34,896 bases of DNA. It comes from Gammaproteobacteria bacterium. Lineage in GTDB: Bacteria > Pseudomonadota > Gammaproteobacteria > Steroidobacterales > Steroidobacteraceae. Under the pieces are notes generated by a model. It was not told the origin of the DNA. It saw only the letters and a program-made list of their open reading frames with translations, and made no database searches. A program made the translations under genes and the position numbers. The first letter of the stretch is position 1, and each line of letters opens with the position of its first letter. Positions 30,158 through 32,730 of the stretch are shown here, piece by piece. Location: contig JAGWMP010000004.1 of the NCBI GenBank assembly GCA_028871705.1, positions 1 through 34,896 on the forward strand, written 5' to 3'.

Positions 30158-30481
30158 TTAGACGGAGAAGCTCTCGCCGCAGCCGCATTCGCCCTTGACG
30201 TTGGGGTTGCGGAAGCGGAAGGCCTCGTTCAGCCCCTGCTTCACGAAGTCGACGATGGTGCCGTCGAGGAGCGTGAGGCTCGCCGAGTCCACGAACACCC
30301 GCACGCCGCGGTCCTCGAATACGGCATCGCCGGGCTCGGGGGCCTCCGCGTAGTTCACCACGTAGGCAAAGCCCGAGCAGCCGGTCTTGCGCACGCCGAG
30401 CCGCAGCCCGATGCCGGTGCCACGCGCCGCGAGGAAGCTCTTGACGCGATTGGCGGCGGATTCAGTCAGTGAGATGGCCAT
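30158..30481 (-). CDS. iscA: Iron-sulfur cluster assembly protein IscA
   Basis: A-type carrier of Fe-S clusters. The 107-residue chain aligns by eye with E. coli IscA, including the three invariant cysteines at the same positions: Cys35 in [10 protein letters not shown] and Cys99/Cys101 in GECGCGESF. The segment [16 protein letters not shown] is closer to IscA than to ErpA or SufA. It starts 21 bases after the iscS-fusion stop with GAGGG before the ATG, so it is part of the trmJ-iscS-iscA transcript. Confidence 0.93.
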
Positions 30482-30502: not shown

Positions 30503-31993
30503 TTACGGCCAGTGCAATAGGCACGCACGCAGCGCATCCTCGATCACCAGCAGCCGGCCGAGCTTTTCGGCCGGAACCGAGCGTGCGAGCGCCCAGTCCC
30601 TGGGGGCGCCCGGCAGCAGCGCCGTGCGGCTGCGGCCGCGCAGCTGCTGGCAGAGCCACCCGGCCACGTCCAGAGTATGGGGGCACCCGAAGGCCTGGAC
30701 ACGTGCGTCTTTCACAGTGTCGCCCTCGGTGAACAGCCGAAAACGGACCCAGGTCTCCTTCCCCGGCCCCCCCGCTTCGCCGCTCACCGTCGCAGTTTCC
30801 CCGGCCTCCGCCGCGCCGGCCGCAAGACCCGCCGCGGGGGACATCCCCCGCAGCCGCCGCACCTCGCGGGCGACGGCCGCGGCGGCCAGCTCGATGTGCT
30901 CCGCCTCGGTGAAGCGCCCGAGGCCAAAGCGCAGCGAGCTCGCCGCCAGCAGCGCATCGCGCCCGAGCGCGCGCAGTACGTAAGACGCCTCGGCGCTCGC
31001 GGAGTTGCACGCCGCCCCGGTCGAGACCGCGAGCTCGGCGAGCCCGGCCACCAGGCTCTCGCCCTCGACGCCCCCGAAGGAGACGTTGAGGATGCCGGGC
31101 ACGCGGGGCGCACCCGCGCCGTTCAGATGCACCTCCCCGAGGGCGCGCAGCCGCTCCCACAACGCCTCGCGCAGCTGCGTGAGGCGCGAGCTCTCCGCGG
31201 GCAGCGCGGCGCCGGCGAGCTCACAGGCGGCGCCGAAGCCGGCGATCTGGTGGGTGGCGAGGGTGCCGGGCCGCAGCCCCTGCTCCTGACCGCCGCCGAA
31301 GGTCACCGGCTCGAGGAGCCCGCGCGCGCTGGCGCGCACGTAGAGCGCGCCGATGCCCTTGGGCCCGTAGAGCTTGTGCGCGGTGAAGGAGAGGAAGTCG
31401 ACCGGCAGGACGGCCATATCGAGCGCCACCTTGCCCGCCGCCTGGGCACAGTCGCTGTGGAAGGCGACGCCCCGCTCGCGGCACAGGGCGCCGAGGCCCG
31501 CGAGGTCCTGCAGCACGCCGGTCTCGTTGTTGACGCCCATGAGGGAGACCAGCTGCGTGTCGGGGCGCAGCGCCGCCGCCACGGCGGCGGGGGTCACCAC
31601 GCCGTTGCGCGCGGGCGTGAGGTAGGTGACGTCGAAGCCCGCCTTTTCGAGATGCTTCAGGGGATCGAGCACCGCCTTGTGCTCGGTACGCGCGCTGAGC
31701 AGGTGGCGCCCGCGGTCGGCGTTGGCGCGCGCCGCGCCGAGAATGGCGAGATTGTTCGACTCGGTGGCGCCGGAGGTGAAGACGATCTCGTGCGGCGCCG
31801 CGCCGATGAGTGCCGCAACCTGCGCGCGCGCGCGCTCGATGCGCGCGGCCGCGGCGCGCCCGAAGGCGTGGCTCGAGGAGGCGTTGCCGAAGTCCCCCGC
31901 GGGCGTGAGGCACTCGGCCATGACGGCGGCGACCCGCGCATCGACCGGGGTGGTCGCGGCGTAATCGAGGTACACGGGCAGCGCGGTACTCAC
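30503..31993 (-). CDS. iscS: Cysteine desulfurase IscS fused to a degenerate IscU/NifU-like domain
   Basis: PLP-dependent enzyme that takes sulfur from cysteine for Fe-S clusters and thio-modifications. Residues 1-385 form the complete IscS core: YLDYAATTPVD, TEHKAVLD, SDCAQAAGKVALD, the PLP Lys207 in FTAHKLYGPKG and the persulfide Cys329 in STGAACNSASAEASYVLRALG. The usual C-terminal tail is replaced by a linker (about 386-410) and an extra domain (about 411-496) resembling IscU: VKDARVQAFGCPHTLDVAGWL and EDALRACLLHW. The domain keeps the central GC (Cys437) but lacks the first and third IscU cluster cysteines. Total 496 residues versus about 404. The GTG start at 31993 overlaps the trmJ TGA (GTGA); the ORF-track start at 33121 is another frame through trmJ. 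Fusion seen directly; its role is inferred. Confidence 0.9.
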   Translation of the reverse strand: MSTALPVYLDYAATTPVDARVAAVMAECLTPAGDFGNASSSHAFGRAAAARIERARAQVAALIGAAPHEIVFTSGATESNNLAILGAARANADRGRHLLSARTEHKAVLDPLKHLEKAGFDVTYLTPARNGVVTPAAVAAALRPDTQLVSLMGVNNETGVLQDLAGLGALCRERGVAFHSDCAQAAGKVALDMAVLPVDFLSFTAHKLYGPKGIGALYVRASARGLLEPVTFGGGQEQGLRPGTLATHQIAGFGAACELAGAALPAESSRLTQLREALWERLRALGEVHLNGAGAPRVPGILNVSFGGVEGESLVAGLAELAVSTGAACNSASAEASYVLRALGRDALLAASSLRFGLGRFTEAEHIELAAAAVAREVRRLRGMSPAAGLAAGAAEAGETATVSGEAGGPGKETWVRFRLFTEGDTVKDARVQAFGCPHTLDVAGWLCQQLRGRSRTALLPGAPRDWALARSVPAEKLGRLLVIEDALRACLLHWP

Positions 31994-32730
31994 TGGCGCT
32001 CCCCGGCGTGACGCCGGCGGTTCTGCACCGCGGTGAGGATGCCGCGCAGGATATTGGCCTCGTTGTGGTCGAGCTCGGCGCGCTGCAGCAGGCGGCGGAT
32101 GCGCAACATCAGGTGCGTGCCGCTCTCGGTGCGGTCGCGAAAATCGATCTCCTCGAGTACCTGCGCGAAGTGCGCGTAGAGCGCCCGCATCTCCTCCACC
32201 GTGGCGAGCGCTGCCGCCACGGGCGCGCTGGCGACCGGCGGCACGCCCCGCGCCCGGTGGAGCTCGTAGGCGACGAGCTGCACCGCCATGGCGAGGTTGA
32301 GCGAGGGATAGGCGGCGTTCGCCGGAATGCGCAGCAGCAGGTGCGCCGTCTCGAGCTCCTCGTTGGTGAGCCCGGTGCGCTCGGCGCCGAACAGTACCGC
32401 CGCGGGCGAGCGCTCTGCCTCCGCGAGGATGCGCGGCGCCGCCGCGCGCACGTCCGCTACCCGGAAATACTGGTCGCGCTCGCGCGCGGTGGTCGCGGCG
32501 ATGAAGCCGCAGCCGGCGAGCGCCTCGGCGAGCGAATCCACCACGCGCGCCGCCGCGAGCACGTCGTCGGCCCCGGAAGCACGCGCCGTCGCCTCGGCGT
32601 GCGGGAACTGCCGCGGCCGCACCAGCACCAGCGAGCCGAGCGCCATGTTCTTCATGGCGCGCGCGGCAGCGCCGATGTTGCCCGGGTGCGAGGGCGCGAC
32701 CAGGACGATGCGAATGTCGGGGGATTCCAT
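31990..32730 (-). CDS. trmJ: tRNA (cytidine/uridine-2'-O-)-methyltransferase TrmJ
   Basis: SPOUT methyltransferase that 2'-O-methylates position 32 of tRNAs. The 246-residue protein has the family signatures IRIVLVAPSHPGNIGAAARAMKNM at the start and AVLFGAERTGLTNEEL and IPANAAYPSLNLAMAVQLVAYEL forming the knotted SAM site. The C-terminal part carries the short helical extension (FAQVLEEIDFRDRTES). It is the first gene of trmJ-iscS-iscA, divergent from suhB with 74 bases between; in E. coli trmJ also sits upstream of the isc operon, but iscR normally follows it and is missing here. Confidence 0.95.
   Translation of the reverse strand: MESPDIRIVLVAPSHPGNIGAAARAMKNMALGSLVLVRPRQFPHAEATARASGADDVLAAARVVDSLAEALAGCGFIAATTARERDQYFRVADVRAAAPRILAEAERSPAAVLFGAERTGLTNEELETAHLLLRIPANAAYPSLNLAMAVQLVAYELHRARGVPPVASAPVAAALATVEEMRALYAHFAQVLEEIDFRDRTESGTHLMLRIRRLLQRAELDHNEANILRGILTAVQNRRRHAGERQ

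Follow-up and report, generated by a model that had tools for sequence, protein, structure and literature searches.

The locus described here raises the question of what function remains to an IscU-like domain that has lost most of its cluster ligands and is joined to the C-terminus of a cysteine desulfurase. It lies on contig JAGWMP010000004.1 of assembly GCA_028871705.1 (Steroidobacteraceae, Gammaproteobacteria), of which a stretch of 34,896 nt (the window) was analyzed. The degenerate IscU-like domain is designated IscU*. The relevant features are as follows:

31990..32730, minus strand: trmJ, directly upstream of the fusion gene (TIGR00050, 218 bits)
30503..31993, minus strand: iscS-IscU* fusion gene, a 496 aa ORF with a GTG start
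30836..31993, minus strand: IscS core, residues 1-386 (Aminotran_5, 2.8e-74; PRK14012 IscS, 6.7e-148)
31007..31009, minus strand: codon of Cys329, the catalytic persulfide cysteine, equivalent to E. coli Cys328 (fused-protein alignment)
30797..30835, minus strand: linker, residues 387-399, with low model confidence, at the position of E. coli IscS 386-404
30506..30796, minus strand: IscU*, residues ~400-496 (~97 residues; profiles and model)
30683..30685, minus strand: codon of Cys437, equivalent to IscU Cys63 and the proposed sulfur acceptor (conservation)
30158..30481, minus strand: iscA, A-type carrier, directly downstream (TIGR02011, 153.4 bits against a cut-off of 150.6)

The trmJ stop codon overlaps the start codon of the fusion gene, and 21 bases separate the fusion-gene stop from the iscA start. 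The gene order trmJ-iscS-IscU*-iscA-ndk-rlmN, with IscU* in the iscU slot, is common across the order (here, Steroidobacteraceae and relatives).

The desulfurase core and the IscU homology of the tail

Residues 1-386 match the group I cysteine desulfurase (IscS) family and have its fold, PLP lysine and catalytic cysteine loop. The top PDB matches of the AlphaFold model are E. coli IscS structures (52-53% identity), while the TIGR02006 score of 477.7 bits falls below the equivalog cut-off of 643.2; judged by sequence, the core is IscS-like rather than a textbook IscS. The desulfurase looks active, as an alignment of 42 fused proteins shows no variation at His105, Lys207 or the catalytic Cys329.

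As a single sequence, the tail matches IscU-type families weakly: NifU_N (PF01592) scores 12.8-15.1 bits against a cut-off of 22, and TIGR01999 scores 14.7 bits against an equivalog cut-off of 192.4. A profile built from the fused tails only, however, retrieves E. coli IscU with an E-value of 1.5e-9, and a profile that adds the unfused relatives does so at 2e-17. The isolated domain was modeled with a mean pLDDT of 96.5, and human ISCU and E. coli IscU are the best PDB matches of this model (TM 0.84-0.88, 1.4-2.0 A). The tail is a true IscU homologue, with a match far beyond chance once its relatives are included, and both profiles and the model rule out that it is unrelated to IscU. The preliminary description of this DNA had noted the resemblance and proposed structure prediction and a profile search, which have now confirmed both fold and homology; it had placed the IscU-like interval at 30503-30763, the right location for a domain that is in fact slightly longer.

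Distribution of IscU* and history of the fusion

The bacteria with a degenerate IscU form a large group from soil and geothermal settings. In the order, the IscU* domain was identified in 174 of 196 genomes; the majority of families encode it in a gene of its own (~125-135 residues) between iscS and iscA. The named relatives are metagenome-assembled genomes (MAGs) labelled Steroidobacteraceae, Gammaproteobacteria or Proteobacteria. A survey for the same fusion, as had been suggested, found it at 50 of 77 fetched loci, while the other 27 are separate (including L076, which is cut by a contig end). One record titled Klebsiella pneumoniae (L145) carries a fusion near-identical to that of an uncultured proteobacterium of the group (L144) and is probably a mislabelled MAG. 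No report of the IscU* domain or of an iscS-IscU* fusion was found in open-access PMC papers.

In an IscS tree, the well-supported branches require three or more changes between the fused and separate states, and the whole tree needs eight; this is a quick tree in which L041, a long branch with only 36% of its columns aligned, is misplaced. Genus g34 of family f15 (L051-L053) is a separate case of fusion, and a further fusion (L155) occurs outside the order, in a genome that also encodes canonical IscU, HscA, TusA and ThiI. By these comparisons, the fusion of IscU* to IscS is an event that arose more than once. The N-terminal helix of IscU is absent from the tail in our window, but a helix-like stretch lies between IscS and the domain in six fused relatives (L102, L115, L117, L119, L121 and L155), which suggests that the whole IscU* gene was fused first and trimmed later.

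The contig with the window belongs to an incomplete assembly, and a lost stop codon or frameshift might in principle have created such a reading frame. The probability of an artefact of this kind is negligible: the fifty fused loci come from many independent MAGs, and the fusions in genus g34 and in another order (L155) have separate origins. The frameshift raised earlier as a potential refutation of the fusion was accordingly rejected.

Most genomes of families f12 and f14 have SUF and MnmA but no detected IscU*; the IscU* gene has apparently been lost from these families. Outside the order, degenerate IscUs near iscS show other combinations of residues: Cys106 only (L161, L170), Cys63 and Cys106 (L162), no ligand cysteine (L168), or Cys63 replaced by Asp (L159).

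Residues kept and lost on both partners

Among 70 IscU* members of the order, the equivalent of IscU Cys63 is kept in 69, with a proline directly after it in 69, and Lys103 is kept in 65. Cys37 and Asp39 are found in none and Cys106 in one. All 77 named loci have the Cys63 equivalent, and Cys437 is invariant in the 42 aligned fused proteins. Two further tail cysteines, Cys447 and Cys491, are unconserved and align with neither Cys37 nor Cys106. The tail therefore does not have the three ligand cysteines and Asp39 of the IscU scaffold, and the early reading that it keeps only the central cysteine was correct: Cys437 is the sole retained IscU ligand cysteine of three. Residues 59-64 and Lys103 are among the IscU positions that contact IscS in the E. 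coli complex, and a disulfide between IscS Cys328 and IscU Cys63 has been observed (PMC2854127). Loss of the ligands with retention of Cys63 and Lys103 means that the cluster site is gone while the desulfurase-facing side is partly retained, together with one cysteine. Two members depart from this pattern. In L063 (G042), a separate IscU*, Cys37 is gone while Cys63, His105 and Cys106 of IscU are kept, making it an apparent evolutionary intermediate. Alone among the 70, L033 (G179), which is fused, has another residue in place of the conserved cysteine (AFAAGPV).

A domain that has lost its ligands could be a fossil, a functionless remnant of the isc operon. The operon is clearly shrunken in the order, and the gene seems to have disappeared from families f12 and f14. 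However, the median dN/dS of the tail (0.26) is near that of the IscS core (0.23), showing that the tail is under purifying selection; residues in its GCP and EKLGRLL..EDA motifs are invariant, and the domain persists in 174 of 196 genomes. We regard a fossil as very improbable.

The binding site on IscS has also changed. Canonical IscS ends in LSPLWEMYK...WAAH (in E. coli, the tail at 386-404 is LWEMYK...WAHH), and E. coli IscS lacking residues 376-404 fails to bind IscU (PMC2854127). The IscS proteins of the order that are encoded beside a degenerate IscU end shortly past the LSP equivalent or carry unrelated residues, so that the docking tail is missing from all of them, fused or separate alike. 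The preliminary description had proposed that the IscU-like module replaces this tail. The tail is indeed absent here, but fusion is ruled out as the cause of its loss by the unfused relatives, which are also without it. Its distribution suggests that the loss of the docking tail accompanied scaffold decay rather than fusion. Tethering may compensate for a weakened binding site.

The main rival to the persulfide-acceptor role that we propose below is that IscU* is a regulator, filling the IscU site on IscS to tune its activity or exclude other acceptors, with the cysteine minor or structural. This would fit the degenerate IscUs outside the order that are still near iscS despite having no Cys63 (L159, L161, L168 and L170), the loss of the cysteine in L033, and the finding in E. 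coli that IscU is a competitor of TusA and reduces the activity stimulated by TusA (PMC11302665). On the other hand, near-universal conservation of the cysteine in the order and at the named loci is hard to explain by docking alone, and little TusA remains in the order as a competitor. We consider a regulatory role unlikely, though it has an appreciable chance of being correct.

Sulfur transfer in the order and the proposed role of IscU*

The genomes of the order were also compared for other Fe-S and sulfur-transfer genes. None of 59 has an IscU over the TIGR01999 cut-off, and none has an HscA over its family cut-off (which is imperfectly sensitive, as the canonical ISC genome G240 is also below it), while SufB is present in all 59. 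HscA matches of ~620-650 bits in these genomes were taken as DnaK because there is one sub-cut-off match per genome, as opposed to two in canonical ISC genomes; G042, with extra HscA-match fragments, is an exception. The option that the fused module is a docking platform for a true scaffold, suggested earlier, is weakened by this lack of canonical IscU. In the source genome, a canonical three-cysteine SufU is encoded beside sufS, split over two contigs (C159/C213).

IscU* might instead retain an Fe-S role, with a cluster built or passed on together with IscA and held by Cys437 plus ligands from Cys329, IscA or a second subunit. The iscA gene is directly downstream in nearly all loci, and, according to the titles of the human structures 5wlw and 6wih, the cysteine loop of the desulfurase can reach the ISCU site. 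Cys37, Asp39 and Cys106 are gone, however, and the order has neither HscA nor canonical IscU over the cut-offs and does have SUF with a three-cysteine SufU. We judge a residual Fe-S role to be improbable, less so than a fossil.

Sulfur acceptors have also been lost. Among 53 genomes of the order, TusA was found in seven (three of them weak), ThiI in none, DsrC/TusE in two and SufE in 15, while MnmA was found in 52. By comparison, TusA is present in 54 of 58 relatives with a canonical-like IscU score. These losses leave an IscS without canonical IscU or ThiI, and usually without TusA, yet with a tRNA thiolase to feed. For tRNA thiolation in the order, MnmA is kept, yet TusA and TusE/DsrC are rare and ThiI is absent as sources of its sulfur.

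We propose, with slightly more confidence than doubt, that the tail is an IscU turned from an Fe-S scaffold into a single-cysteine acceptor of persulfide, joined in one chain to the desulfurase from which it is loaded. IscU* would probably act in sulfur transfer rather than in cluster assembly. A persulfide would be transferred from Cys329 to Cys437, within one protein or across the dimer, and from Cys437 to a downstream enzyme, as with SufE or TusA. The first candidate client would be MnmA (tRNA 2-thiouridine), the most plausible one because it persists where TusA is rare and ThiI absent. Retention of Cys63 and Lys103, the conserved locus, repeated fusion and purifying selection support the acceptor role, as does the absence of IscU and HscA over their cut-offs in an order in which SUF is present. 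The full-length fusion was modeled with a pTM of 0.87, higher than we would expect if the tail were predicted to lie randomly relative to the core. There is also precedent for a desulfurase-acceptor fusion that passes persulfide, in the cysteine desulfurase (CD)-rhodanese protein (PMC8931425); from conservation and the Cys328-Cys63 disulfide of the E. coli proteins, we infer a persulfide-acceptor function for Cys437.

Several observations count against the acceptor role or against MnmA as its client. TusA is kept in eight of ten IscU*-bearing genomes outside the order, and B. subtilis YrvO feeds MnmA without a Tus relay (PMC10219651). Since families f12 and f14 have MnmA and mostly lack a detected IscU*, MnmA cannot always need IscU*. 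The members without a Cys63 equivalent (L033, L159, L161, L168 and L170) imply a cysteine-free role somewhere in the wider group. The broader proposition that the whole order converted IscU to a single-cysteine relay from IscS to MnmA, replacing TusA, perhaps along with the entire Tus chain, and fused several times, is held tentatively, as a possibility that we doubt more than we believe.

In this family an Fe-S scaffold has been dismantled one ligand after another, and its desulfurase-binding side and a single cysteine have survived. Its natural intermediates and repeated fusion to its partner offer a test, provided by nature, of the debated matter of which cysteine of IscU can accept sulfur. 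They also point to a sulfur route, as yet unrecognised, in bacteria that lack TusA and ThiI.

IscU* was compared with known systems. With the IscU scaffold it shares ancestry, fold, its place between iscS and iscA, Cys63 and Lys103; it differs in that the tail lacks Cys37, Asp39, His105, Cys106 and the N-terminal helix, is fused, and falls far short of the IscU cut-off. SufE and TusA would resemble it in mode of action, as small desulfurase partners with a single acceptor cysteine, but IscU* is IscU-derived and tethered and has no SufE or TusA family match (Pfam SufE, PF02657, had no match in the fusion protein). SufU provides a likeness of another kind, an IscU-type fold that serves as a sulfur acceptor and not as a scaffold. 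SufU, whose partner is SufS, retains three cysteines and an aspartate for zinc, whereas IscU* has one cysteine and no equivalent of Asp39. The natural cysteine desulfurase-rhodanese fusion of Pseudorhodoferax likewise carries a desulfurase and a domain that accepts persulfide on the same polypeptide, but its acceptor is a rhodanese and is not IscU-derived (PMC8931425). Its sequence features place IscU* outside IscU, which is defined by three ligands and the family cut-off, and outside SufE and SufU as well.
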